From NCBI GenBank assembly GCA_016550425.1, contig JABXGS010000001.1:1-23712 (forward strand): DNA of 23,712 nt, written 5' to 3'. A program made the translations under genes and the position numbers. Shown piece after piece: positions 5,823 through 19,166 of this stretch. Position 1 is the stretch's first letter. Every line of letters starts with the position of its first letter. This stretch comes from an archaeon (lineage in GTDB: Archaea > Asgardarchaeota > Hermodarchaeia > Hermodarchaeales > Hermodarchaeaceae). The notes under the pieces were generated by a model, which was given only the letters and a program-made list of their open reading frames with translations, did no database searches and had not been told where the DNA came from.

Positions 5823-5887
5823 ACTGAGTTGAACCTTTAATGTTCTTGATAATTCTTCCTTTTGAGTCTAGGGATTTTACGCAACCC

Positions 5888-5896
5888 TTTTATACA
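5888..5896. promoter_or_regulatory. TATA-like element in the thiN / ECF intergenic region
   Basis: The sequence TTTTATACA reads TGTATAAAA on the minus strand, so it is TATA-like in both directions. On the minus strand it lies about 75-85 bases before thiN, predicting a leader of about 50 bases. On the plus strand it lies 41-49 bases before the ECF GTG start, predicting a leader of about 20 bases. It is the only good TATA candidate in this 125-base divergent gap, so it could serve either gene or both. Confidence 0.4.
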
Positions 5897-5936
5897 TCCC
5901 GTATGAAAACCCGTATTCGTTCGGGAGTCGATCAAG

Positions 5937-6608
5937 GTGAATGAGTTTCTAAAAGAAAAATCTGCTCCGCGGTCCTTATACGTTGCCACGATTGGGGTTC
6001 TAAGTGCTTTAATGGCGTTTATGGCAATGTTTGCTGTTGTTCTCCCTCCTCCACTTGGTTCAATTGACACCTCGTCAATTCTCATTTTCGCAACTGCCAT
6101 TCTTTATGGTCCCTCATTCGGGCTCATTATTACAATCATTGGGCAACTTATCGGAAAAGGTGTGCTTATCTCTTCTGTGGGTTGGCCGGCAATTTTCATT
6201 CCCGGAATTGTAGCGGTTCGTGGTCCTGAAGCCTTCATCGTCGGATATATCGGTCGCTCTAAATCTTTTGGACGATTTCGTGAGCCCCTTGCGATGGGGA
6301 TAGGAGTAGTTTGGGAAACAGTGGCATTTGTTATTGCGGATTTCTGGCTCTTTGGGATTGCAGGTGCTATTGGGGTAATTTTCACTTTTATCGATGTTAT
6401 TTGGGTACCAGTAGGAATTGCGGCACTCTACTATGTTCGATTGACTTTCAAAACCGAATACCTCGACAAGCATCTAGGTTTAGTTGATCCTCGAGCAAAA
6501 CGCGGTTTCATGATTACTGGTTCTCTATTCATTCTTCTTTGCTGGATATTTATTCTCATTTCTGGAATAACAGGTTGGGGCTTACTTCCTGTATTTCCTA
6601 GTTTATAG
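5937..6608 (+). CDS. ECF-transporter-type substrate-binding membrane protein (S component)
   Basis: This is a 223-residue integral membrane protein with about six hydrophobic segments, resembling S components of energy-coupling-factor vitamin importers. After a short basic N-terminus, helix 1 (about residues 15-37) leads to the PPPLGSIDTSSILIFATAILYGPSFGLIITIIGQLIG segment, the usual S-component layout with a glycine-rich repeat. LAMGIGVVWETVAFVIADF and two further helices follow. The start is GTG at 5937; an ATG at 5941 is out of frame. No EcfA ATPase or EcfT gene is in the window, so it would use a shared energising module. The divergent thiN suggests thiamine or a precursor as ligand, but no TPP riboswitch or diagnostic ligand motif is visible, so the ligand is unassigned. 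Confidence 0.72.
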   Translation: MNEFLKEKSAPRSLYVATIGVLSALMAFMAMFAVVLPPPLGSIDTSSILIFATAILYGPSFGLIITIIGQLIGKGVLISSVGWPAIFIPGIVAVRGPEAFIVGYIGRSKSFGRFREPLAMGIGVVWETVAFVIADFWLFGIAGAIGVIFTFIDVIWVPVGIAALYYVRLTFKTEYLDKHLGLVDPRAKRGFMITGSLFILLCWIFILISGITGWGLLPVFPSL

Positions 6609-6651
6609 TCCACACAATCGTGTCGCCACGCAAGTCCGTGTTAGGGGAAAC

Positions 6652-6658
6652 CTTTAAG
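6652..6658 (+). promoter_or_regulatory. Possible TATA box for the macrodomain gene
   Basis: CTTTAAG preceded by purine-rich GGGGAAA (BRE-like) lies about 52-58 bases before the ATG at 6710. Transcription would start near 6680. Composition and spacing are the only support. Confidence 0.35.
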
Positions 6659-6709
6659 CCTAGATATAGGGCTTTTTGCTGGTAGTGGTTGGTCGAATGG
6701 TGTTGGAGT

Positions 6710-7243
6710 ATGCGTCGTGTCGTCAACAAAGTCACAATCGAACTTGTACAGGGCGATATTACTGACTTAGCAACCGACGCAATTGTAAATGCAGCAAATG
6801 AATCACTCCAAATGGGAGGCGGGGTTGCAGGTGCAATTCGCCGACGCGGAGGACCAGCAATACAACGCGAGTGTGATGAAATTGGAGGGACACCCGTTGG
6901 AACTGCGGTTCTTACAAATGGAGGGAACCTAAAAGCTCGGTATGTTATTCATGCAGTCGGACCTCGTTGGGGGGAAGGGAATGAAGCTCAGAAACTTGCA
7001 AGTGCTGTGAGAAGTGCGCTCAAAATTGCTGTTGGAAAGCGTTTACGCAGTATAGCCTTCCCTGCTATCAGCACTGGAATTTTCGGATTCCCTAAAAAAC
7101 AAGCTGCTCAAATCATTCTCACTACTATCCTCGCTTTTGTGCGAGAAGTCGATTCCACTCTTCGTCGCATTGTATTCAGCTTGTTTGATCCTACTTCGTA
7201 TGCGATTTTTGAAGAAACCTTTGCGGCACTATCTGCAACATAA
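6710..7243 (+). CDS. Macrodomain protein (probable ADP-ribose/O-acetyl-ADP-ribose hydrolase)
   Basis: This 177-residue single macrodomain protein resembles the MacroD/YmdB group, which removes ADP-ribose from acidic residues or deacetylates O-acetyl-ADP-ribose. Signature motifs are all present: VQGDIT (residues 13-18), IVNAANESL (25-33), GGGVAGAI (36-43), AVGPRWGEG near residue 83, and the STGIFGFP phosphate loop (121-128). No other domain is attached. A TTG at 6689 would add seven residues. ATG at 6710 is preferred because the macrodomain begins directly after it, although its ribosome site is weak. It faces the convergent DinB-like gene. Substrate choice among macrodomain types is inferred from the MacroD-like motifs. 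Confidence 0.9.
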   Translation: MRRVVNKVTIELVQGDITDLATDAIVNAANESLQMGGGVAGAIRRRGGPAIQRECDEIGGTPVGTAVLTNGGNLKARYVIHAVGPRWGEGNEAQKLASAVRSALKIAVGKRLRSIAFPAISTGIFGFPKKQAAQIILTTILAFVREVDSTLRRIVFSLFDPTSYAIFEETFAALSAT

Positions 7244-7280
7244 GAAGTTAATTTGAAGGTAGGTCAAAGAGTGGGAATTG

Positions 7281-7799
7281 TTACTGTTTGACAAAAAAGA
7301 TGAGTTGTGCAACTGCCTCCATCATCTGGCTCCAATATTCCTCGAGTTCATCGTTTGGTAGATCGGATCCTCCAACTGCATAGCGTGTGTAGATGATTTC
7401 TCCGCTGTGATACAGCGTGTGAAGTGTAATATGTGATATGACCCAACCCAAACTTGGTTTCTTTTTCTCGGTGGGAGGTTGAAACACCAATTCTTCTTCA
7501 GGGCAATCCTTGAGTTCCCTTATGATGCGTTTACGGACATCCTCTAATAAATCGAGAGCAATATTGAGTGGAACAGTTTTTGCATATACGACCACCTTAC
7601 GTCCTGAAGCGGATAACCAGTACAATTCCGAATTCGCTATGTGAGTCAGATAATAGAGAATCGTCCGTGATTCGGGTGCTGGTTCCTTTCCTGCTTGTTC
7701 TGGTGTTAGATCAGACACGATATATCGAAGATGGTCACGAGCTGCTTCGTAGGCTGCAGCCAGACCGGTTCGTAAGTCCTTTGGGGTTTTGGTGGTCAT
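7281..7799 (-). CDS. DinB-family four-helix metal-binding protein
   Basis: This 172-residue mainly helical protein fits the DinB/YfiT fold. The metal ligands expected for the family are visible as H53 in LTHIANSELYW and H127/H131 in SHITLHTLYHSGEI, the counterpart of the usual HxxxHRGQI ending. Family members are metal-dependent, thiol-linked enzymes or stress proteins, and many have no known substrate. The gene is divergent from the AAA+/VWA gene and convergent to the macrodomain gene. No Shine-Dalgarno precedes the ATG at 7799, so the message may be leaderless. No specific reaction can be assigned. Confidence 0.8.
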   Translation of the reverse strand: MTTKTPKDLRTGLAAAYEAARDHLRYIVSDLTPEQAGKEPAPESRTILYYLTHIANSELYWLSASGRKVVVYAKTVPLNIALDLLEDVRKRIIRELKDCPEEELVFQPPTEKKKPSLGWVISHITLHTLYHSGEIIYTRYAVGGSDLPNDELEEYWSQMMEAVAQLIFFVKQ

Positions 7800-7852
7800 G
7801 GCTACAAAGAGGAATCCCAGTAACTAAAGCTTTTGCCTAACTTGGAAAATCG

Positions 7853-10495
7853 GTGGATTTTGATTTTCATGTTCTTGGTGCATCTTCCCAAAATTCTATA
7901 AGCGAAAGGCGGGCAGGAGTGGTTGAGGTTCCCCGTTTGGTACCGGAAGTAAATACTGCTCTACGCAGCGTTCTCCCATTCACGGCTTTCGTCAATCATG
8001 ATGAATTGAAGCTAGCGCTACTACTTAACGCGATCAATCCTGGTATTGGTGGACTTCTGATAACGGGTCCCAAAGGGACAGGAAAAACCACTGTTGTTCG
8101 ATCCCTTGCAGCCCTTCTTCCCGAAATTCCGATTGTCAAAGGGTGCCAATTTCGGTGTGCTCCCGATGATGCCATGGGGCTCTGTTCGTCTTGCAAGGAA
8201 AAACTTGAGAAGAATAAGAGACTGACAACTGTCAAACAAAAAATGCGAGTGGTCAATCTCCCATTAAGTGCCACCGAAGACCGTGTTGTCGGTAGTTTAG
8301 ATGTTGAGCGTGCTATCCGGGAGGGTGAAGCGGCTCTGAAACCGGGTATTCTTGCAGATGCGAATCAGAATATCCTTTATGTCGATGAAGTGAATTTGCT
8401 TCCTGATCATATTGTTGATTCACTCCTCGACGCTGCAGCAACGGGGATTAATGTTGTCGAAAGGGAAGGAATCTCTGTTAGCCATCCTTCGCGATTCATT
8501 TTCATTGGTTCCATGAACCCGGAAGAAGGAGAACTCCGTCCCCAACTCTTGGATAGATTTCCTCTTCATGTGGCAATCCAACGACCATTCTCCACAGCTG
8601 AACGAGTCGAAATTATTCAACTAAACATTGATTTTGAACGGGATCCCGAAAGCCTCCTAAAGAAGTGGGCGTCGCAAGAGGAGAAACTCCGGAACGAAAT
8701 TGCTGCTGCACGAGAACGAATGAAGACTGTAGAGATTTCTGAGGGGATAATGGAGCTTATTGCGCAGTTAACCACACAACTCCAAGTTGATGGCGCGCGT
8801 CCTGATATTGTAATTGCAAAAACGGCTATGGCTTTTGCTGCTTTTGATGGTCGTAACAGCGTAGCCCCTGAAGATGTGGAAATGGTTGCTCCTCTTGCTC
8901 TCAGCCATCGAACGCGCCAACGTGGTATACTCGAACCGCCATCAGATGATGAGATTCAAGATATCATGAAGGAAGCCAAGAAGAAAGTCAAGACTCAGAA
9001 TCCCCGTTCCAAGGATAAAGACCCTTTTACAAAGGATGAGCACCAAAAACTTACCCGAAAATTCAAACAATATCATCCCTTGGACAGTAGTCAGGATGGC
9101 GAACGTTTTTTCGGAACCCCTCCTAGAAAAGGCGCTGCCGGACGCTGTTCGTACACCGGATTTGTATGTTTCTTCATGGTCATTGCAGCTGCTCTAGGAC
9201 TTATCATTCCAATTCTCCCACCCTTCAACTTTGTTGTAGGTGGGTTGATTGCAGCAGGCTTGGTAATTCTGCTCGAAAGGGTCTACCGATATCAACGACG
9301 ACCAGGCTCTGTAATGCCAGCCCTCTCGCAGGGAGAACGACCCCCAGACACTAAGGGTCAGTATAAACGAGCAAAACACCGGGGAGATTCCACAGCTCCT
9401 CCAACCACAAGTACTACTCCGCCCAAAGCCATTCGAAGTTCTTCTCAACCGTCTGTCTCTGGAAAACCGGTGTCAGGATCCTCTCTCATTCGAATGGAAG
9501 AAGGGAAGCCACTCTTTGATTTCAAAGATTTTCTTGAACCTCGATATTTCGGACGCCAGCGAGCTCCTAAATGGTCAATACGGCAAGTTGGTCGTCGCGC
9601 AGGTTCACTGTTTTCTCGCCAATCCGAAGGGGGTGTCTTATTGGGATCTGCAATTCCTCAAGGATCTCCTCGCAATATTCACTTACCTGCCACAATCAAG
9701 GCGGCAGCACTCCATACAGATCCAACAATCCAGCGTATTCCTCGTGTTCGTATTCATTCGCCTGATGTCCGAGAAAAACGATTTCAAAGTTGGACACCTC
9801 TGACCATCATCTTTGTCGTTGATCTGAGTGTCTCAATGCTCAAAAACATCGATAAACTTCAACTCTCTTTGATTGCATTCAAGACATGTTTGGAGGGCAC
9901 GCGCGACCGAGTGGGTCTCATTGCGTTAAAGGACTGGGGGGCGGTGGAAGTTCAAGCTCCCACAACCAATTGGACACGCCTTGTAGCTAAATTTATGACC
10001 CTTCGTTTATCTGGATATACGCCATTAGCCGCAGGATTAAAACGTGCGCATGAAACGATCAAACGAGAACGCCGCCGAAACTCTGGGGCACTCCCAATTG
10101 TCGTTGTATTCAGTGATTTTTTACCTAACATTCAACTGAGAAATTCTGATACTCCCGATATCGGGTTACCTGAAGCTATTGCAGATGTTCTTCACCAGTG
10201 CCATCTTATGCGCAATGATCGAATTCCTTTAGTTACGATTAACTTGCACCACGAATTTTTTCCAGTGAAACAGAAAAGGCACCATGATGTCTTCATAGAT
10301 TGGGCCCGAAAACGAGCAAAAGAACTCGAGATTCCGAATTACATTGAGATCGGAATTCGGGATGACAAACTCATTCCCTTTTTAGCCTTCTATATGGCTT
10401 ACATTACAGGTGGTCGAACTTATCTTGGGACTGAATTAGCTTCTCCAACTGAAATCATTAGTGAAATCCATAGAATTGCTCAACGAGTTGGGTAA
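7853..10495 (+). CDS. ChlI-like AAA+ ATPase fused to a VWA domain through a membrane hairpin
   Basis: This 880-residue protein combines the I and D parts of magnesium-chelatase-type machines. The N-terminal AAA+ domain has Walker A GPKGTGKT (residues 72-79), a four-Cys insertion (CQFRCAPDD...CSSC), Walker [11 protein letters not shown] with D178/E179, and a ChlI-type sensor-1/arginine region [20 protein letters not shown]. The AAA lid runs to about residue 365. A basic linker leads to two closely spaced hydrophobic segments (about 436-457 and 461-481), a predicted transmembrane hairpin, and then a low-complexity Pro/Ser/Thr linker. The C-terminal VWA domain has an intact MIDAS: DLSVS at 657-661, GYTPLAAG, and VVFSD. 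The start is GTG. No chelatase H subunit (CobN/BchH) is nearby, so cofactor metal insertion is not supported. A MoxR/VWA-like remodelling role at the membrane is inferred. A longin-like gene follows after 62 bases. Confidence 0.85.
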
Positions 10496-10517
10496 GGTCT
10501 CGGAAAGCTTTTCTCTC

Positions 10518-10523
10518 TTTAAA
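10518..10523 (+). promoter_or_regulatory. Possible TATA box for the longin-like gene
   Basis: TTTAAA lies 35-40 bases before the ATG at 10558 in the 62-base gap after the AAA+/VWA gene, so the longin-like gene may have its own promoter as well as read-through. Confidence 0.35.
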
Positions 10524-10542
10524 CCATCAAGAAAGTATTACG

Positions 10543-10548
10543 AAAGGT
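10543..10548 (+). promoter_or_regulatory. Shine-Dalgarno site for the longin-like gene
   Basis: AAAGGT lies nine bases before the ATG at 10558 and supports that start. Confidence 0.5.
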
Positions 10549-10557
10549 CGAGTTTGA

Positions 10558-11217
10558 ATGGCCCAACTTTATAGTCTCTATGTCGTGTATCGCGATGGTC
10601 GAACTCTTCTCCAAAAGGACTTTCAAATCGAAAATATGGAACCTGACCTTGTCACTGGATTCCTTTCAGCCGTGAGTATGTTTCTCTCAGATTTGGTTGG
10701 TCGCATTTCAGTGGGTGGACAACAGCTACGGACCCTAGAACGCGAGGATGGACGACTCCGCATTATCGACCGAGAAGATGTAAAAATCCTCTTAGAATAC
10801 GGAAAAAACATCTACGTCGCGGTTTTCTCCACCCATGATCTAGCTGCTATTCGTGAACGCATGCGTACTCTCATTACGATTATGGAGCGAGAGCACGGTG
10901 AATTATTAGAAAATTGGCTGGGTGATCTAAGCCATTTTCGGAACATCTTACCACAGATAGATTTACTCTTTCGTCCATTTGCAGTCACGGAGCGCTACGT
11001 TCCTGTTCGTGTACATACCGTTCCCAAATCTCAGGTGCCTGAGAAGTATCATCCGCTTTTAGATGCGATTGATGGTACAAAATCCATTCGAGACCTTGCA
11101 CTGCAGTTACATCAACCGGTGTTCCAAGTCATGCTTGACTACTTTACACTTCAAAATCATGGTGCTGTGGAACTTGAACGTCACTTAAAAATTGAACAGC
11201 TCGTTTTGCCAACTTAA
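10558..11217 (+). CDS. Longin-like domain protein with C-terminal winged-helix-like region
   Basis: This 219-residue protein opens with QLYSLYVVYRDGRTLLQKDF, a beta-turn-beta pattern like the start of longin/sybindin/adaptin-sigma domains. It continues with a helix rich in FLSAVSMFLSDLVG, the strand pair RTLEREDGRLRIIDRED/VKILLEYGKNIYVAVFS, and a long helix (about residues 97-117), which completes a longin- or roadblock-type topology. Residues from about 165 (HPLLDAIDGTKSIRDLALQL...LQNHGAVELE) look like a winged helix of the kind at the end of DUF4388 proteins. In eukaryotes and Asgard archaea, longin-type domains scaffold small GTPases and trafficking complexes. No GTPase is in the window. 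Its position after the membrane AAA+/VWA gene suggests a partner. The stop shares the palindrome TTAA with the convergent GIFT-domain gene. The fold is a judgement from pattern. Confidence 0.6.
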   Translation: MAQLYSLYVVYRDGRTLLQKDFQIENMEPDLVTGFLSAVSMFLSDLVGRISVGGQQLRTLEREDGRLRIIDREDVKILLEYGKNIYVAVFSTHDLAAIRERMRTLITIMEREHGELLENWLGDLSHFRNILPQIDLLFRPFAVTERYVPVRVHTVPKSQVPEKYHPLLDAIDGTKSIRDLALQLHQPVFQVMLDYFTLQNHGAVELERHLKIEQLVLPT

Positions 11218-12104
11218 TTGCCTTTATCTTGTTTCTGAAGTTCTCGGATCATTTTTTCCATTTCTCTAAGGCTCGAATTTATGACGTCTTTCAGGTTAGC
11301 CAATTCTTCTTCGATTGTATCAAGTTGTTGTTGAAGGTCCGCGATTGCTTCAGTTGCCGTCAGCTGATTCATTGTAGCCGATGCTCTGGTAACCTTCTGG
11401 ATCGGTAAATCCGTCGGTTCACCTGCCAACCACCGAAAGAGTTGCACAATGAATTTTTCGTGGTCTCCTGCTGTAATATAGTCGTTGAAAAAGAAAGTCC
11501 CTCCACCGAAGGCTGCAATTCGTCCTTTCTTGAATTCCATTGCGATGGCGATTGTGGGGGTTCCTGGGCTAGCTGGAACTCGGAAGAGATGAGTTTCTGT
11601 ATTCTCCGCTACAAGTTTTGTCCCTGAAGAGACTGTCAAAGAACCAATGCCTGTAAGGATATGATGGGTTCCTGCTGGGATTGCACTAAAAATATCTTCT
11701 TCTACATCTGGTGGCTTCTCTAGAGCTTTCTTTGAAAACTCAAATCCAAACTGCTTTGCTAGCTCGTTGAGATTTGTATTCCGTGCATTGTCACCTCCTT
11801 TACCAAAAATTGTTGCTCCACTTATCAAGAGCAAACCCTTGCCTGATTTAACAAAGGAAACTAAGGTTGAGATTTCGTCAGAAGTCAGTTTAGATTCATA
11901 GGGGTTGCCTAAGACCACGACTTGATATTGGGCCAGCTTTTCGCTTGTAAAAGGCGAAATGTTTGTGGAAGGTGCGAAACCATTCGCGTCCAGAAGCTTA
12001 GCTAGCATTGTTAATTCTGGTTCCTCAAGCGTTAATTCCTCATTATGACTTACATCAAAGAGGATTGCAGGCGGTTTTGGGGGAGACATAGTATTTCGAC
12101 CCAT
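11214..12104 (-). CDS. GIFT/DUF4350-like (IFT52/GldG-type) domain protein with C-terminal coiled coil
   Basis: This 296-residue protein starts with AILFDVSHNEELTLEEPEL, like the first strand of GIFT domains (GldG, IFT52, DUF4350), which are glutamine-amidotransferase-like folds without a catalytic triad. Typical following parts are YQVVVLGNPYESKLTSDEI, the FVKSGKGLLLISG strand, and NLNELAKQFGFEF. A second conserved strand is GRIAAFGGGTFFFNDYITAG. Residues about 247-292 (LQQQLDTIEEELANLKDVI...) form a predicted coiled coil that could mediate assembly. No signal peptide or membrane helix is seen. The start could be ATG at 12104 or 12089. It is divergent from CDC48 and convergent with the longin-like gene, with stop codons overlapping. 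Family members act as scaffold or sugar-binding modules; the exact role here is unknown. Confidence 0.65.
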   Translation of the reverse strand: MGRNTMSPPKPPAILFDVSHNEELTLEEPELTMLAKLLDANGFAPSTNISPFTSEKLAQYQVVVLGNPYESKLTSDEISTLVSFVKSGKGLLLISGATIFGKGGDNARNTNLNELAKQFGFEFSKKALEKPPDVEEDIFSAIPAGTHHILTGIGSLTVSSGTKLVAENTETHLFRVPASPGTPTIAIAMEFKKGRIAAFGGGTFFFNDYITAGDHEKFIVQLFRWLAGEPTDLPIQKVTRASATMNQLTATEAIADLQQQLDTIEEELANLKDVINSSLREMEKMIRELQKQDKGN

Positions 12105-12125
12105 ATTCCACTATCAGGCGCCGGA

Positions 12126-12135
12126 GTTAAATATG
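12126..12135 (+). promoter_or_regulatory. Possible TATA box for the CDC48 gene
   Basis: GTTAAATATG in the 93-base divergent gap is the best TATA-like match, about 63-72 bases before the chosen ATG at 12198. It would give a leader of about 40 bases. Confidence 0.3.
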
Positions 12136-12197
12136 CTACTCGCGTGGGTAATACCAAGAAACCTTGTAGCCATGTTCTAATTGGTGTGTGGCTAAAG

Positions 12198-14348
12198 ATG
12201 AGTGTAGCATCAGTACGTGTGGCAGAAGCTAGTGCGGTTGATGTTGGACGGTTCACGGTCCGCTTAGATCCTAACGTGTTTGACCAACTCCAACTCGCAG
12301 ATGACTCTCTCCTTGAGATTGTTGGAAAAAAAAGTGTGTGCGCTAAGGCAATCCGCGATGTCACCCTGCAGAACCAGAATGTCATAAAAATGGATGGTCT
12401 AACTCGACTGAATGCGGGTGTTCGGATTGGAGACGTTGTAACAGTGCAAAAGACCGAGGGTCAACCAGCGCGGAGCGTCATATTGACTCCACTCAAGGGG
12501 GAAGAAATCGAATATCGTCAGGAACTAGCCACTTCTCTATTGAAAAGCAATCTTCTTGATAAACCAGTTAGGAAAGATATTATTATTGCAGTCGGACGAG
12601 CCGCATTCGCCTTGGCAGAAGCTAAGTTTTATGTTGCCAAAACAGTTCCAGCTGGAAATGTGATCGTCAATACCAATACTGACCTCATATTGCAGAAGGA
12701 AGCTCCAGATGAAGTCACTCCGATTGCTACCGCAACCTACGATGATGTCGGCGGTTTAGATGACGCAATTTCCCGAATCAGAGAAATCGTCGAACTACCA
12801 ATACGCCACCCTGAGCTTTTTGCACGATTGAAAATACAACCACCTCGAGGGGTACTTCTGCACGGACCCCCCGGCTGTGGCAAAACACTTCTCGCCAAAA
12901 CGGTGGCTACTGAAAGTGAAGCTTTCTTTCGGGCAATCAATGGTCCCGAAATAGTGAGTCAATATTATGGTGAATCCGAGAAATTTCTTCGAGATGCCTT
13001 TCAAGAAGCTGAAAAAAATAAACCTGCGATAATCTTTATTGACGAAATCGATGCCATTGCTAGCCGACGAGAATCGGGAGGCATGGAAAGCCGGATTGTA
13101 GCCCAACTACTCACCCTCATGGATGGTCTCCAAGACCGGGATCAAGTCTTCGTCCTCGCTGCAACGAACCGATTAGACGCAGTTGACCCAGCACTGCGCC
13201 GCCCAGGACGGTTTGATCGAGAAATTCATATTTCCGTTCCTGATCAACACGGTCGCTATGATATTCTTCGAGTCCACACACGGGGTGTCCCCCTCGATGA
13301 CTCAGTTGACCTCCACAGCATCGCCCAAGGAACTCATGGCTTCGTCGGTTCCGATTTAGCCTTTCTGGTGAAGGAAGCGGCTCTAGGTGCCCTCCGCCGT
13401 GTGTTACCCCAAATTGAAGAATCGCAGATGCAAGTTCCTCCAAATATGATAAATCAAATTGTAGTTAGCGCTGATGATTTCAAAACGGCTCGTCAAATAG
13501 TTGAACCCTCTGCTCTTCGAGAAATTGCTATCGAGGTTCCTATGGTCCGTTGGGAAGACGTGGGCGGAATGGAATCCGCCAAGCAGGCTATACGAGAAGC
13601 AGTTGAATTACCTATCAGTCGCCCTGATATCTTTCAACGATTCAATATCACTCCTCCAAAAGGTGTCTTACTCTTTGGTCCTCCAGGCACTGGTAAAACA
13701 CTACTGGCAAAAGCAGTGGCTACTGAAAGTCAAGCGAATTTCATCAGCATTCGAGGCGCCGAAGTAATGAGCAAATGGGTTGGCGAATCTGAAAAAATCA
13801 TCGCAGAAATCTTTCGTCGCGCTAGACAAGCCGCTCCCTCAGTTCTTTTTATTGATGAACTCGATAATATTGCACCCCGCCGTGGATCTGGATTTGATAG
13901 CCGTGTAAGTGAACGCATTGTCAACCAGCTCTTGGTAGAAATGGACGGAATGGAACAACTCGAAAGTGTAGTCGTGCTTGCAGCCACCAATCGTCCTGAT
14001 ATGATTGATACCGCTCTCCTACGTCCTGGGCGGTTCGATATTTTCATCTTCACACCACCTCCCAACCAAGCAGCGCGGCAAGCTATCTTTGAAGTCCATA
14101 CTCGAAATATGCCACTCGCTGAGGATGTAAAGGTCGAACAACTCGCTTCAGTCACAGAGGGTTTCTCAGGGGCTGATATCCAAAACGTCTGTCGCAAGGC
14201 GGTCCTTGCCGTTCTACGCACCAATCTAGAAGCTAAACGCGTTAATATGGCACATTTCCACGAAGCCATTAAATCTACAAGACCAAGCATAACCCAGGAC
14301 ACAATGGATCAATTCACTCAATTCGCGGCTCGTTTTCTAGGACAATAA
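12198..14348 (+). CDS. cdc48: CDC48/VAT-type tandem AAA+ ATPase
   Basis: This is a double-ring AAA+ unfoldase of the CDC48/p97/VAT family, 716 residues, which extracts or unfolds proteins using ATP in the cytosol. The N-domain (about 1-180) begins with RVAEASAVDVGRFTVRLDP, the double-psi barrel start of VAT. Ring D1 has Walker A GPPGCGKT (223-230), Walker B FIDEID (D282/E283) and the arginine-finger region RRPGRFDRE. Ring D2 has GPPGTGKT (494-501), FIDELD (D553/E554) and LRPGRFD. All key residues are intact. The C-terminus ends FAARFLGQ with no HbYX proteasome-docking motif. The frame is open back to 12045, but family alignment makes the ATG at 12198 the real start; the ribosome site is weak. 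Three same-strand genes follow with gaps of 42-62 bases. Confidence 0.96.
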   Translation: MSVASVRVAEASAVDVGRFTVRLDPNVFDQLQLADDSLLEIVGKKSVCAKAIRDVTLQNQNVIKMDGLTRLNAGVRIGDVVTVQKTEGQPARSVILTPLKGEEIEYRQELATSLLKSNLLDKPVRKDIIIAVGRAAFALAEAKFYVAKTVPAGNVIVNTNTDLILQKEAPDEVTPIATATYDDVGGLDDAISRIREIVELPIRHPELFARLKIQPPRGVLLHGPPGCGKTLLAKTVATESEAFFRAINGPEIVSQYYGESEKFLRDAFQEAEKNKPAIIFIDEIDAIASRRESGGMESRIVAQLLTLMDGLQDRDQVFVLAATNRLDAVDPALRRPGRFDREIHISVPDQHGRYDILRVHTRGVPLDDSVDLHSIAQGTHGFVGSDLAFLVKEAALGALRRVLPQIEESQMQVPPNMINQIVVSADDFKTARQIVEPSALREIAIEVPMVRWEDVGGMESAKQAIREAVELPISRPDIFQRFNITPPKGVLLFGPPGTGKTLLAKAVATESQANFISIRGAEVMSKWVGESEKIIAEIFRRARQAAPSVLFIDELDNIAPRRGSGFDSRVSERIVNQLLVEMDGMEQLESVVVLAATNRPDMIDTALLRPGRFDIFIFTPPPNQAARQAIFEVHTRNMPLAEDVKVEQLASVTEGFSGADIQNVCRKAVLAVLRTNLEAKRVNMAHFHEAIKSTRPSITQDTMDQFTQFAARFLGQ

Positions 14349-14378
14349 TGAAATAACACAAATTCTATAGAAAAGAAA

Positions 14379-14384
14379 GGAAGG
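14379..14384 (+). promoter_or_regulatory. Shine-Dalgarno site selecting a TTG start
   Basis: GGAAGG lies nine bases before the TTG at 14394. No in-frame ATG lies near, so this site supports the unusual start codon. Confidence 0.5.
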
Positions 14385-14393
14385 TAAATCTCA

Positions 14394-15242
14394 TTGACTT
14401 GGGAACTGGAACCAACTGAAAAACTAACCATTGCTAAAAGCATTCTCCCCAAAGCTGATGAAACGTTGCTCCTCGTCGCAAAAGCTAAGATCGCCAAAGG
14501 CGTTCGAGCAGGGAGTGAGCCTTTGATGGTGAAGGGACAGGATGGTCATTTCATCCTGACGAGTTACCGGACTGCATTCGTCGCAGAAGTTGAAAGACTC
14601 CCACCCACTGAACCATACAAGGGCGAATTAGAAAGAGCATTAAAACATAGTAAGGTATTCTTCAATGTGCCTCTCGTGTTTCTCTCCGAACTCCAAGAAA
14701 ATCCGGAGAGTTACAGTAAGTGGAAGAAACATATCAACCTCGCTGTGGAGCGCTCTGATGGTGTGCAAGAAGTTGTCTATATTAAAGCTACAGGAGAGTT
14801 ACTTGATTTTCAGCGAACTAGCCATGGCTTTTTCAAGAGTTGCTTCACCGGACCGATTGACTTCTACAAACTCTTAGAAAGCGGAGTTAAACACGAAACC
14901 ACAACAGAAACAGCAATCTATGATCTTATTGGGAAGCGCATCATTAGGCAAATGACCGCAGTTCCTGAGAGTATGCTGCAAAGTTATAAAAATAAGGCTC
15001 AAAAGCTATTCACGACGTTTGTCTCCTACCTTGCAAAAAAGGGTCAAGGGGGGTATTATGATGCAGTGGCGAGGACAATTGTACTCCGTGGAGATCATGT
15101 CCACATCTCCATGGATTGGATTGCCCAATCCACAAATTCTGCCATTCAACAAAAAACCCAACAATTCATCCAAGAATGGCGCAGTAAGGAGGACGCAAAA
15201 GCAGAACGACTTGGAGATCGATATGAAATCACTGGCTTTTAA
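14394..15242 (+). CDS. Unrecognised protein, possible PH/GRAM-like domain
   Basis: I do not recognise this 282-residue protein. It has no signal peptide or membrane helix. Residues about 20-150 show a PH/GRAM-like strand pattern: ADETLLLVAKAKI, then GHFILTSYRTAFVAEVERL (the 'lTs.R..f' feature of bacterial PH and GRAM domains), FFNVPLVFLSELQ, INLAVERSDGVQEVVYIKA, and GFFKSCF. The C-terminal half is helical with KLFTTFVSYLAKKGQGGYYDAVARTIV, which could be a winged-helix unit, and ends in charged helices. It starts with TTG 45 bases after CDC48, with an SPFH-like and a V4R-like gene downstream. A lipid- or adaptor-binding role next to CDC48 is inferred from the fold guess and context only. Confidence 0.5.
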   Translation: MTWELEPTEKLTIAKSILPKADETLLLVAKAKIAKGVRAGSEPLMVKGQDGHFILTSYRTAFVAEVERLPPTEPYKGELERALKHSKVFFNVPLVFLSELQENPESYSKWKKHINLAVERSDGVQEVVYIKATGELLDFQRTSHGFFKSCFTGPIDFYKLLESGVKHETTTETAIYDLIGKRIIRQMTAVPESMLQSYKNKAQKLFTTFVSYLAKKGQGGYYDAVARTIVLRGDHVHISMDWIAQSTNSAIQQKTQQFIQEWRSKEDAKAERLGDRYEITGF

Positions 15243-15290
15243 CTAGGCACCAATAGTTATTTGAAGTTAGAAGTATTCGCAAATATGAGA

Positions 15291-15296
15291 AGGAGG
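15291..15296 (+). promoter_or_regulatory. Strong Shine-Dalgarno site selecting a GTG start
   Basis: AGGAGG lies eight bases before the GTG at 15305. It fixes the start of the SPFH-like gene. Confidence 0.75.
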
Positions 15297-15304
15297 CTTT
15301 CACT

Positions 15305-16552
15305 GTGGCAAAAACTGTATGTCTAATGGCACCAGATCCACATCTTGGTCCCCACCCCACCATCCCAATCGGTGATGTTGGAGGACAAACATACTGGACA
15401 CAAATGATCCAAGCTCCCCATAAGGATCGTGGTGCTCAAGCAATCCGCGCTTTTCGGCGACTCACTCGGCTTGCAGCTTTTGGCGGTTTTTCTACCGGCA
15501 AAACTATAGCTCGCATGCTCCCGACCGGGACCGAAATCCAAGAATCAGATTCGCGGCTACCTCTCTTTATCTACCATCCTCCAGATTTGGAGCGGGATAT
15601 GGAGCAAATTGAAATCCTCGAAAAAGACGCAAAAATCTATGTTCCTCCCGATTGGCTTTGCTGTGCTTATGGTGAGGAATTCAACAATGGCGATCGTGAA
15701 TTCAAAGTCTATGAAGTCTGGGAACCCAGCGAAACCCCATACGCTATTGAAACTTTTCCGTCTCCCTTGATTAAAACAGGCTGGAGGGGTCAAGGGTTCA
15801 AATCTAACATCGTCTACATTTACACTGGGCGTGTTCACGTCTATGCAAATACCGGTGTAACCCAAACCTCTGATCTAGCACGGCTCACATGGACGGGTAA
15901 GTCTTGGCGCCGAGAAGAATTCGATATACCCGTAACCACGGGAGAAGGAAAAGAGACAAAAACCATTTATCAGCGGTCGGTTCGGCTCCAAGAGCCGTAT
16001 GGGCTTCTTTTCGCCTTTGTTGTTGATGACGCTCGAGAACTCATTTCAAACCTCCATGAGCAAAGGATTCCTATGAATTCCCAAGAGCTAGTCGAATATC
16101 TCAAGACGCTAATCGATAATGTGATGCGAGATAAATTCTCTGAGCACGAATTCATGAGCGCTTTAAGAGATGAAGCAGAAATTCGAGATGAAGTCCGGAA
16201 AATCGTGGCGAAGGCCTTTCAACGACTGGGCCTCAACCTCGTTTCTCTTTCAGCCGGTGTACTGTCCATTGAAGAGAAGCTCTGGGATCGTTTCTTCTAT
16301 TGGCGTGTAGCTGGGGTGCATCCAGCACAAGTGCTTTGGGCTGAGAAATCAGTAGAAATTGCTGAAAAAACTGGACAAGCTCCTACATTGCCTGCAACAA
16401 TTCCGACTGGTCCGCTAGCCGAAGCAGAACGTCAACTTCGGGATCGTGCTCCTGCTAGAACAACCCGAAAGGAAAAGGCGAAGGATACAATCCCTGAGAA
16501 ACCTGAAAAAGCCACGGAAGGAAAAAACGAAGCATCTGAAAAGAAAGGCTAA
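15305..16552 (+). CDS. SPFH/band-7-like protein with charged tail
   Basis: This 415-residue protein has a central region (about 105-345) resembling SPFH domains of the 'virion core protein-like' group. Its features are IYVPPDWLCCAYG, NIVYIYTGRVHVYANTGV, QRSVRLQEPYGLLFAFVVDDARELI (the usual 'v..r..G.y.f.v.d...l' strand-helix), then a helical EFMSALRDEAEIRDEVRKIVAKAFQ. LGLNLVSLSAGVLSIEEKLWD matches the terminal 'yGl.l....i..I' strand. The N-terminal 85 residues do not match the family and contain GGFSTGKT, a P-loop-like string without other NTPase motifs. The last 45 residues are Lys/Glu-rich and probably disordered. No transmembrane helix is seen. SPFH proteins form oligomeric membrane-associated rings. 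The GTG start has a perfect AGGAGG eight bases upstream. It lies in the CDC48 gene string. Confidence 0.6.
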   Translation: MAKTVCLMAPDPHLGPHPTIPIGDVGGQTYWTQMIQAPHKDRGAQAIRAFRRLTRLAAFGGFSTGKTIARMLPTGTEIQESDSRLPLFIYHPPDLERDMEQIEILEKDAKIYVPPDWLCCAYGEEFNNGDREFKVYEVWEPSETPYAIETFPSPLIKTGWRGQGFKSNIVYIYTGRVHVYANTGVTQTSDLARLTWTGKSWRREEFDIPVTTGEGKETKTIYQRSVRLQEPYGLLFAFVVDDARELISNLHEQRIPMNSQELVEYLKTLIDNVMRDKFSEHEFMSALRDEAEIRDEVRKIVAKAFQRLGLNLVSLSAGVLSIEEKLWDRFFYWRVAGVHPAQVLWAEKSVEIAEKTGQAPTLPATIPTGPLAEAERQLRDRAPARTTRKEKAKDTIPEKPEKATEGKNEASEKKG

Positions 16553-16576
16553 CCACAGCATCAATGCGGTCAACTG

Positions 16577-16583
16577 AAGGAGG
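16577..16583 (+). promoter_or_regulatory. Shine-Dalgarno site for the V4R-like gene
   Basis: AAGGAGG lies 11 bases before the ATG at 16595. Confidence 0.65.
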
Positions 16584-16594
16584 ATTAATAACGA

Positions 16595-17152
16595 ATGACA
16601 ACCAATGAAGGAACCACAGAAGCAAAACCACCATTATTTTCTGGCCCGTTAATGCCGATCTTTTATCTTCGATTGGTTGAAGCTCTTTCTGTTGAGCATG
16701 CAGGCAATCCTACCGCTATCGAACGGGCCCTTCATGCGCTAGGAAAGACCATGACTACTCCCCTCTTACTCGGACTGGTGGCTCGTTATGGAGAACCTCA
16801 AGAAGATTTCTATCCTAATTCTGCTGATCTTTTTTTGAATCGAGTTGATGAGTATCTATCACGCAACTGGAAATTAGCCACAGGTAGTCCACCGGATTCC
16901 ATGGAGTTTACCGACGATCGAACACTTCTACTCCGAACAAAATCTTGTCCGATTTGTTCCCAGGATACCTTCGAAGCAGAAATGGATCTCCGCTACTGCG
17001 AGCGTGTCTCAGGACTGCTTGAAGGGCTTCTTCAGCATTGGATTGATAATCTTCAGGTTCCTTACATTGCCCGCGTCACCCAAATTGAAGGACGCCTCCA
17101 AGGAGCATCTCATTGTGTTTTTCGCATCAGTTTCACTGATAAAACCGATTAG
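16595..17152 (+). CDS. V4R/TRAPP-fold protein with Cys motif
   Basis: This 185-residue protein ends in a pattern typical of V4R domains: SCPICS (about residues 115-120), LRYCERVSGLLEGLLQ and GRLQGASHCVFRISF (C...G...G, then Glu, Gly, CxF). V4R domains share a fold with TRAPP Bet3 subunits and bind small ligands or act as scaffolds. The CPxC pair plus C in LRYCE could bind metal. The N-terminal half is helical (FYLRLVEALSVEH...ALHALGKTMTTPLL), as in Bet3-like proteins. No membrane segment is seen. The gene is last in the CDC48-PH-like-SPFH-like string, 42 bases after the SPFH-like gene, with AAGGAGG before the ATG. It faces the convergent AOR gene. The function is unknown. Confidence 0.65.
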   Translation: MTTNEGTTEAKPPLFSGPLMPIFYLRLVEALSVEHAGNPTAIERALHALGKTMTTPLLLGLVARYGEPQEDFYPNSADLFLNRVDEYLSRNWKLATGSPPDSMEFTDDRTLLLRTKSCPICSQDTFEAEMDLRYCERVSGLLEGLLQHWIDNLQVPYIARVTQIEGRLQGASHCVFRISFTDKTD

Positions 17153-17176
17153 GAATCGATTCTGAGAAGCACTGGT

Positions 17177-19009
17177 TCAAGTTAAGCAAACTACCTCTTC
17201 AAGGCCAGGAATAAGCCAGTCAAGATCCTGTTCTTTAAGACGTTTCTTTGTAGGGATTCCGCGGTTATCCCATCCTCGTTTTTGATAATACCAAGATAAC
17301 ATCTTCTCATAACCGACCTTGTCAAGTTTTGAACCGGTCAGTGGTCCGCAGGACAAGGGTTCCTTGAACCAGCGAGCGGGTGGATAATCCATGGTCTGAT
17401 CCCACTCACCATTCAATTCGCGAACTCCATAGGATCGAACAAGCGAATAAACACGATCAGCAACAGTCCAAAAGTCATCTAGCGACCACTTCAGTCCAGT
17501 CGCAGCAGCAAAGTATTTGGGATACCATTCGAGGTCAAAGCCCACCTCAATCCATGGGAACCTACAACCAACAAGTTGTTCGAACATGCCTCCTCGAATG
17601 CGTTGGAGTTCTATGACTTTTTCCACTTTGCTCTCATCATAGGATTCTCGACCCACGTCTACTTCATAGGTGATTATCCAGCTCTCTTTGTGGTGCGCAC
17701 CAATTGAACAGACACCAAATGCTAAGGCCATACCTGGAGCTGCATGACAATCATAGCCTGAGATTTCAAGCCCCTTGATTTGCATAGCATAATCCAAAGC
17801 ATCTTTTCCGAGTGTTTGGGCAAAACTGCGAGTTCCTTCTGCAAGCGCTGAACCGAAGGTTCCTCGTCGGAAGGCGATATCGGAAATGAGTTGCTTGACT
17901 GCTTGATAATCTCCCCAATCAAGCTTATCTTTGAGAAGTCCTCTCTCTGATGCTTCCATGGCAAATCCAATTGTGTTCCCAAGAGAAATTGTATCGAGCC
18001 CAAATTCATCAGCTAATCGATTCAACGTTGCGACTTCACGTAAATCCCGCATCCCGATATTTGAACCTAAGAGGGCAACATTCTCGTAATCGAGTTCGGC
18101 GGACTTGCCTTCAGCGTCTTTAATACAGTGACCACATTGCATTGTACAACTGGGACAGCCATGGGTCTTTTCCTTCATCGCTTCCATAGTATCCCCATTC
18201 AATGCCTCTGCATGTTCAAATTGCCCCTCCTTGAAATTGTAACTGGGCAAGACACTGAATTCTTGGCACCATGCATGAATTAGCATAGTTCCTTGAGTCA
18301 TCCACTGATTATAACCTGGCTTCTCCCGAATGTCTTTGAAACCATCCCGACCCAATTGTCGAAACGCTTCAGGATCAGCAATCTCCGGGCTCTTACTGCC
18401 TTTAGCTATCAGCGCCTTTAGGCGTTTAGAACCCATGACTGTTCCCATGCCTGGTCGACCTCCCGCTCGTCCCATCATGGAGCGAACAACTGCATATTTC
18501 ACAAGATTCTCGCCACCCTGTCCAATCATTAACGTCCCAATATTCTTGCCATGGAGGTCCTCCAATTTTTGTTCAGCTTCAAACGCTCCCTTACCCCATA
18601 GCTTATCCGCATCCAAAATACTAACATCTGCATCTTCAATGAAGATATAAACAGGCTTCTCAGCTTTTCCTTCAACTACAACCAGATCATAGCCAGATCG
18701 ACGTAATTGAGCACCAAAATGAGAGCCCAGATTTCCATCTCCATAGATTCCTGTTAATGGGCTTTTTGATGCAACAACAGTTTTTCCAACGTTTGGCATC
18801 GGTAGCCCCGAAAGCGGTCCTACGGCCGCAATGAATTTATTAGCAGGTGACAGGGGATCAGTCCCTCGCGGGACCTCCTCCCAAAGAATTTTTGCTGCAA
18901 ATCCGCGACCGCCAACAAACTGTAGAGCAAGGTCTTTCGGATATGCTTCTGTAGCGGTTTCTTTAGTCGTTAAATTTACTCGTAAAAGCTGGCCAGTCCA
19001 ACCTTTCAT
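17177..19009 (-). CDS. aor: Tungsten-dependent aldehyde:ferredoxin oxidoreductase
   Basis: This enzyme of 610 residues oxidises aldehydes to acids with ferredoxin, using tungsten bis-pterin and a [4Fe-4S] cluster. It opens with WTGQLLRVNLTTKETATE, the standard AOR N-terminus, and has VGGRGFAAKILWEE, SKSPLTGIYGDGNLGSHFG and GRAGGRPGMGTVMGSKRLKA from the cofactor domain. Cluster ligands are C285, C288 and C292 (CPSCTMQC) with C482 (VGCRFPW), the C-x2-C-x3-C...C spacing of the family. The C-terminus FKEPL...YYQKRGWD..GIPTKKRL is typical. The frame is open back to 19090, but ATG at 19009 matches the family start and a TATA box at 19045-19052 lies inside the longer frame. No Shine-Dalgarno is seen, so the leader is probably short. 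Its aldehyde substrate is unknown. Confidence 0.96.
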   Translation of the reverse strand: MKGWTGQLLRVNLTTKETATEAYPKDLALQFVGGRGFAAKILWEEVPRGTDPLSPANKFIAAVGPLSGLPMPNVGKTVVASKSPLTGIYGDGNLGSHFGAQLRRSGYDLVVVEGKAEKPVYIFIEDADVSILDADKLWGKGAFEAEQKLEDLHGKNIGTLMIGQGGENLVKYAVVRSMMGRAGGRPGMGTVMGSKRLKALIAKGSKSPEIADPEAFRQLGRDGFKDIREKPGYNQWMTQGTMLIHAWCQEFSVLPSYNFKEGQFEHAEALNGDTMEAMKEKTHGCPSCTMQCGHCIKDAEGKSAELDYENVALLGSNIGMRDLREVATLNRLADEFGLDTISLGNTIGFAMEASERGLLKDKLDWGDYQAVKQLISDIAFRRGTFGSALAEGTRSFAQTLGKDALDYAMQIKGLEISGYDCHAAPGMALAFGVCSIGAHHKESWIITYEVDVGRESYDESKVEKVIELQRIRGGMFEQLVGCRFPWIEVGFDLEWYPKYFAAATGLKWSLDDFWTVADRVYSLVRSYGVRELNGEWDQTMDYPPARWFKEPLSCGPLTGSKLDKVGYEKMLSWYYQKRGWDNRGIPTKKRLKEQDLDWLIPGLEEVVCLT

Positions 19010-19044
19010 AGTCAACACAACAATCGCTAAATCTTGCAATCCGT

Positions 19045-19052
19045 CTATATAG
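19045..19052 (-). promoter_or_regulatory. TATA box for the AOR gene
   Basis: CTATATAG is a good archaeal TATA box on the minus strand, 36-43 bases before the ATG at 19009. Transcription would start near 19022, leaving a leader of about 13 bases. Its position rules against the longer start at 19090. Confidence 0.5.
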
Positions 19053-19166
19053 ATGCCACAAATAGCTTTCGCAGCCACACACAAGTTCATTCGAAACTCA
19101 GAAAAACAATAAGATAAAAGGCTTCAAACCACCTGATAGCCTTCATCTGTTCAGAGGCGTTATATT

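Follow-up and report, generated by a model that had tools for sequence, protein, structure and literature searches.

Why does a gene for a CDC48-family AAA+ ATPase stand in line with genes for SPFH- and TRAPP-like proteins, and do the products act together? The question is raised by a stretch of 23,712 nucleotides (the window) at the start of contig JABXGS010000001.1 (assembly GCA_016550425.1), from an archaeon of the family Hermodarchaeaceae, in which the ATPase gene is followed by genes for a 282-amino-acid (282-aa) protein, an SPFH protein, and a protein of the TRAPP/V4R fold. A preliminary description of the window, made from the sequence alone, had proposed a membrane-associated module and had called the second product PH/GRAM-like. 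We found that the cluster is real and lineage-specific and that three of the four domain calls are upheld, the PH/GRAM call being the one left unconfirmed. The reading we favor, tentatively and with somewhat less than even confidence, is that the four genes form an operon of Hermodarchaeia encoding a specialized, probably nonproteolytic CDC48 machine acting at the cell membrane.

The arrangement is as the preliminary description had it. All four genes lie on the plus strand, from 12198 to 17152, separated by 45, 62, and 42 bases (gaps of 42 to 62 had been claimed), and each of the last three follows a clear ribosome-binding-type site (Table 1), with TTG, GTG, and ATG as the respective start codons. 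Upstream of the CDC48 gene, no such site was found in the window sequence; its mechanical open reading frame begins at 12045, and four relatives have a start codon matching position 12198. Both flanking genes are on the opposite strand, a GIFT/IFT52-like gene (Pfam IFT52_GIFT, E = 2.9e-12) upstream at 11214 to 12104 and an aldehyde ferredoxin oxidoreductase gene downstream at 17177 to 19090. Across loci, the gaps measured 45 to 60 bases between the CDC48 and 282-aa genes (five loci), 62 nucleotides between the 282-aa and SPFH genes (all six loci), and 38 to 42 bases between the SPFH and TRAPP genes (six loci). The ribosome site of the relatives is strong before the SPFH gene and, in some of them, weaker before the TRAPP gene. 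Of 16 gene pairs, 5 gave a synonymous divergence (dS) from the window of 2.1 to 3.3, and for the remaining 11 no value could be computed; because dS is saturated, the ratio of nonsynonymous to synonymous divergence (dN/dS) is of little use here.

The cluster was present in all five Hermodarchaeia genomes (G001 to G005), although in one of them a contig end truncates two of the genes, and the window CDC48 and SPFH proteins are 80 to 92% identical to those of five Hermodarchaeia records. Among 227 Asgard genomes, strong matches to the SPFH protein and to the 282-aa protein were confined to these five, with six and one further weak matches, respectively. The TRAPP profile matched in 46 of the 227, strongly in the five Hermodarchaeia genomes and with a next-best E value of 6.8e-9. 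No other gene in those five genomes matched the cluster TRAPP profile or Pfam TRAPP at an E value of 0.01 (of the two Pfam models, TRAPP but not V4R was run on them). The co-occurrence of the four genes despite such synonymous divergence is more than chance. The preliminary description had left it to be seen whether the gene order is conserved in relatives: it is, in five of five Hermodarchaeia genomes, and it is absent from 29 other CDC48 loci (20 from other Asgard genomes and 9 from other Hermodarchaeia copies), where no neighbor matched any of the three partners (best E = 0.076). The loci compared were for the most part the best-scoring CDC48 places, not the full set, and several are truncated by the end of a contig. 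The six distant Asgard SPFH matches score as ordinary Band_7_1 proteins; the five such loci that were fetched had no CDC48, 282-aa, or TRAPP match, and at 15 further Asgard TRAPP loci that were retrieved, CDC48, SPFH, and 282-aa matches were absent. Among the 33 listed homologues of the 282-aa protein, 11 share the length of their longest contig with an SPFH or TRAPP homologue, at identities down to 57%, and two pairs of homologue locus tags are ten apart, which would leave one gene between them if the tags run in fives. Linkage in more diverged lineages is thereby suggested.

The sequence of the first product makes its membership in the CDC48 family certain: it scored 895.2 bits against the full-length model TIGR01243 (cutoff, 802.65) and 66.9 bits against the CDC48_N domain. 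Like CDC48, VAT, and p97, it has the N domain, two AAA modules, and the second-ring pore loop SKWVGESE, and both rings retain their Walker A and Walker B motifs and arginine fingers in all five window-type copies. A tree of 42 Asgard proteins placed these five full-length copies (the window protein and four Hermodarchaeia orthologues) in a clade of their own, apart from the other 37, with support of 100/100 and a branch of 0.99 changes per column. Besides the cluster copy, G002 to G005 have two further full-size CDC48 genes each and G001 has one, and the cluster copy is, on this phylogeny, a diverged extra paralogue. It also differs from CDC48, VAT, and p97. The first-ring pore loop reads SQYYGESE in the window type, whereas K occupies the second place in all 37 other Asgard copies; first-ring pore loop 2 is two residues shorter; and the C terminus ends in ...GQ, where the 37 other copies extend 1 to 14 residues further. 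A strict HbYX ending, the 20S docking tail, was present in none of the five window-type copies and in 9 of the 37 others. With its ATPase motifs intact but its C terminus shortened, the paralogue would probably act as a remodeler and not feed a protease. As a separate observation, a second Hermodarchaeia CDC48 gene (L144:8193-11738 and L148:8026-11595) carries an insertion of ∼430 to 460 residues that matches stretches of intein-bearing models, in the first AAA module in G005 and in the second in G004.

The SPFH assignment of the third product is borne out at two levels. Pfam Band_7 was matched at 28.2 bits (cutoff, 23.6) and in all 16 members of the SPFH alignment, and the profile of this alignment matched that of 28 Asgard Band_7_1 proteins with an hhalign probability of 97.8 (E = 1e-12; residues 108 to 358), compared with ≤4% for the 20 other profiles. 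The Band_7_1 model itself scored 12.9 bits, below its cutoff of 24, and the protein is thus best described as a divergent relative of the YdjI type, not filed as a plain member. What it shares with YdjI-type SPFH proteins of Bacillus and Asgard archaea is the alignment of residues 108 to 358 with the Asgard members and the lack of a transmembrane anchor; it differs in its N-terminal extension of ∼107 residues, for which no match was found, and in having no zinc-ribbon match in the Pfam scan, unlike the ordinary copy in G005. The gene partner differs as well, being CDC48 here and PspA for the YdjI type. Bacillus YdjI is predicted to be soluble and needs partners to reach the membrane, to which it links PspA, an ESCRT-III homologue (PMC8581546). 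An ordinary Band_7_1 SPFH gene is present elsewhere in all five Hermodarchaeia genomes (the zinc ribbons being checked in the G005 copy), and it lies near a gene for a 181-aa protein of no known family and two genes for proteins with N-terminal CxxC motifs (L218:1462-6768, L219, and L220).

For the fourth product, the V4R/TRAPP call stood on comparison with solved structures. A 26-row profile retrieved the Thorarchaeota TRAPPC3 structures 7yh3 (E = 6.8e-5; residues 18 to 179) and 7yh2 (E = 5.1e-4; residues 22 to 179), and the next-best structure had an E value of 0.69. These matches cover nearly the full length of the protein, although the window sequence alone scored below the Pfam cutoffs (TRAPP, 12.8 bits against 27; V4R, 13.4 bits against 31). 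Pfam TRAPP was matched at E ≤ 1 in 23 of the 26 alignment members, with a best value of 1.7e-4. Thorarchaeota TRAPPC3 is reported to hold zinc with four cysteines and to have ligand cavities (PMC10933270). The four cysteines aligned to those of 7yh3 are well kept in the alignment: Cys118 and Cys135 in 26/26 members, Cys121 in 25/26, and Cys174 in 24/26, one of the two misses being a gap. Identity to the TRAPP-like protein of another Asgard genome (G222) is 22%. Among other Asgard archaea, one locus (L078:6562-16314) has two TRAPP genes and a V4R gene together with genes for two 300- to 330-aa proteins and an FtsX-type permease (Pfam tested in L078); gene runs similar to this TRAPP-TRAPP-V4R locus occur at L073 to L077 and L079, and nine genomes have two TRAPP-profile matches within ∼3 kb on one contig.

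The 282-aa protein matched no Pfam family, with scattered weak matches in at most 3 of the 27 alignment members. The best of 21 profile comparisons was to Asgard bPH_3 at the motif GHFILTSYR, with a score of 24.0 and a probability of 6.8%, which is not significant; the best of the 20 other profiles scored 21.6, barely below it. The structure model had a predicted local distance difference test (pLDDT) score of 42.6, and the fold comparison covered residues 166 to 269 only. The claim of a PH/GRAM-like domain therefore stays unconfirmed.

How might such proteins work together? We infer that the four genes are cotranscribed and that their products form a single assembly. The SPFH protein would oligomerize as a membrane scaffold. 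Lacking a membrane anchor, it would need to be recruited by partners, and the recruiter could be the TRAPP protein, the 282-aa protein, or an unlinked membrane protein. A dimer of the TRAPP/V4R protein may bind a lipid-like or other small ligand and serve as an adaptor or sensor, the 282-aa protein may link scaffold to motor, and the CDC48 paralogue would spend ATP on pulling at the scaffold or its clients, or on taking them apart, with no transfer to the proteasome. Pairings of an SPFH protein with an AAA+ ATPase have precedents in HflK/C with FtsH and in the erlins with p97. The likeness is by analogy, an SPFH scaffold paired with an AAA+ motor at a membrane, and the cluster differs from these precedents in having no protease domain, no SPFH membrane anchor, and an extra TRAPP-fold partner. 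Archaeal loci related to the endosomal sorting complexes required for transport (ESCRT) offer another comparison: in a survey of such loci, Meth_adaptin occurs with an SPFH gene and Halo_adaptin with a VAT-N-type ATPase (PMC10936438). Those loci share with the cluster a CDC48/Vps4-group ATPase that is linked to an SPFH gene or bears a VAT-type N domain; the cluster differs in its full two-ring CDC48 and its lack of an ESCRT-III gene. We found no report of a CDC48-SPFH-TRAPP cluster in the open-access literature, most subscription papers lying outside this coverage.

Several points weigh against the membrane-machine reading. As a control, 13 comparisons were made of other Hermodarchaeia regions, those surrounding the ordinary SPFH gene and the other CDC48 copies; in 12 of them, all pairs of neighboring orthologues lay no more than two places apart, and in the last, this was true of 6 of 7 pairs. 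The genes flanking the cluster are equally syntenic. Because gene order is so conserved across Hermodarchaeia regions, adjacency is weak evidence of a complex or of joint function, and the four genes may simply be neighbors with separate jobs, an extra quality-control CDC48 beside three unrelated lineage-specific genes that general synteny has kept in place. We take this explanation seriously, even though we doubt it. Better evidence of linkage comes from the common strand between opposite-strand flanks, the near-constant short gaps at saturated dS, and the identical five-genome distribution of four genes that are all diverged versions, none of which fits separate jobs well; the altered first-ring pore loops and tail of the CDC48 protein are likewise unexpected for a plain spare. 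Other difficulties concern the machine itself. None of the four proteins shows a membrane-spanning segment (maximum 19-residue hydropathy, 1.00 to 1.50), so the case for membrane association comes from the SPFH and TRAPP relatives. A joint membrane function is plausible. The structure models of the SPFH and 282-aa proteins are of low confidence, and neither profiles nor model confirmed a PH-like adaptor. A strict HbYX ending is likewise missing from 28 of the 37 other Asgard copies of CDC48, so the absent tail only hints at nonproteolytic action. The conserved 62-nucleotide spacer may be an internal promoter, in which case the SPFH and TRAPP genes might be expressed on their own as well. Finally, some database homologues are named Thorarchaeota, Odinarchaeota, or Hodarchaeota; either the cluster is limited to Hermodarchaeia only as far as the searched genomes go, or the labels on those records are loose.

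Two further explanations concern membranes in other ways. The cluster could be a YdjI/phage-shock-type membrane-stress module, in which the SPFH protein senses or fluidizes stressed membrane and CDC48 replaces a missing PspA as the remodeling partner. The alignment with the YdjI type and the role of YdjI in bringing PspA to the membrane speak for this idea, as does the failure to find Pfam PspA in any of the five Hermodarchaeia genomes at an E value of 0.001, but the ordinary Band_7_1 SPFH gene that each genome keeps elsewhere, and the lack of a membrane-integral YdjG/H-like protein in the cluster (by hydropathy only), make it rather improbable. The other idea, that the cluster stands in for ESCRT after the loss of ESCRT from this lineage, would accord with a 2024 survey that gives Hermodarchaeia no ESCRT components (PMC10936438). 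Four of the five Hermodarchaeia genomes, however, have two Snf7 matches each, with none in G001 (1.7 Mb), and Snf7 was matched in 208 of 222 Asgard genomes. With ESCRT-III genes in four of the five genomes, we rejected simple ESCRT replacement and consider a substitute role highly improbable. The listed Hermodarchaeia Snf7 matches are on contigs other than that of the cluster, and Snf7 was not among the Pfam matches shown for the nine window genes scanned. In G005, an ESCRT locus (L221; G005:C19:6000-25500, at 5853-8676 and 16603-17760) has two Snf7 genes within 12 kb of a gene for an MIT-AAA-Vps4_C protein, and the Snf7 genes stand beside a gene whose bPH_3 product matches the Vps23 core below threshold. 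A phage or defense origin was also considered and set aside: the SPFH protein had no match among phage records and none confirmed in IMG/VR, PHROG matches were weak only, and the three partner proteins had no PADLOC match, while CDC48 matched several AAA-containing defense families, as most AAA proteins would.

The noncoding parts of the locus suggest where its expression may start. A TATA-like sequence, GTTAAATATG, lies 63 to 72 nucleotides before the CDC48 start, in a block that is near-identical in all five aligned loci (the window, L001, L002, L004, and L005), while the remaining spacer varies. We regard the block as a candidate CDC48 promoter, possibly common to the divergent gene at 11214 to 12104. 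In a six-sequence alignment, the spacer before the SPFH gene is conserved in sequence as well as in length, unlike the other two spacers, and could act as a leader element or an internal promoter.

Table 1. Coordinates of the cluster genes and associated elements in the window
Feature	Position	Strand	Basis
CDC48-family AAA+ ATPase, 716 aa, diverged paralogue; CDC48_N and two AAA modules	12198..14348	+	TIGR01243, CDC48_N, tree
282-aa protein, fold unassigned; PH/GRAM-like motif GHFILTSYR only	14394..15242	+	Profile searches
SPFH protein, 415 aa, divergent relative of the Band_7_1 (YdjI) type	15305..16552	+	Band_7, profile comparison
TRAPPC3/V4R-fold protein, 185 aa, with Cys118, Cys121, Cys135, and Cys174	16595..17152	+	Profile match, alignment
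Ribosome-binding-type site AAGGAAGG of the 282-aa gene	14377..14384	+	Sequence
62-nucleotide spacer before the SPFH gene; AAGGAGG at 15290-15296	15243..15304	+	Constant length, conserved sequence
Ribosome-binding-type site AAGGAGG of the TRAPP/V4R gene	16577..16583	+	Sequence
Conserved noncoding block with TATA-like GTTAAATATG (12126-12135)	12112..12144	+	Near-identical across 5 loci

Farther upstream, two genes occupy the window region from 7853 to 11217. The first encodes an 880-aa protein of the Mg-chelatase-type AAA plus VWA kind, in which a hydrophobic segment lies around residue 437; the product of the second is conserved, 219 aa long, and of no known family. The two genes also precede the cluster in L001 (where the 880-aa gene is cut), L002, L004, and L005. 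By eye, the 219-aa product (10558 to 11217) looked longin-like, but no credible PDB match came from a five-sequence profile.

Many eukaryote-like components of membrane trafficking occur in Asgard archaea with no assigned partners. In one cultured Asgard archaeon, small-GTPase genes are generally not in operons with TRAPPC3 genes, as noted in a 2024 report (PMC10933270). The cluster described here gives a TRAPP-fold protein specific, testable candidate partners, including a CDC48 motor, and places an SPFH gene next to CDC48 instead of PspA or FtsH. As none of the four proteins shows a membrane-spanning segment, they may be easier to express and test for assembly. A bolder reading, which we consider unlikely but worth stating, is that a dedicated CDC48 paralogue works within an SPFH scaffold with a TRAPP-fold ligand-binding subunit, as an Asgard-born, independent counterpart of eukaryotic SPFH-p97 membrane extraction. 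If true, TRAPP-fold proteins would be tied to an AAA+ motor rather than small GTPases.

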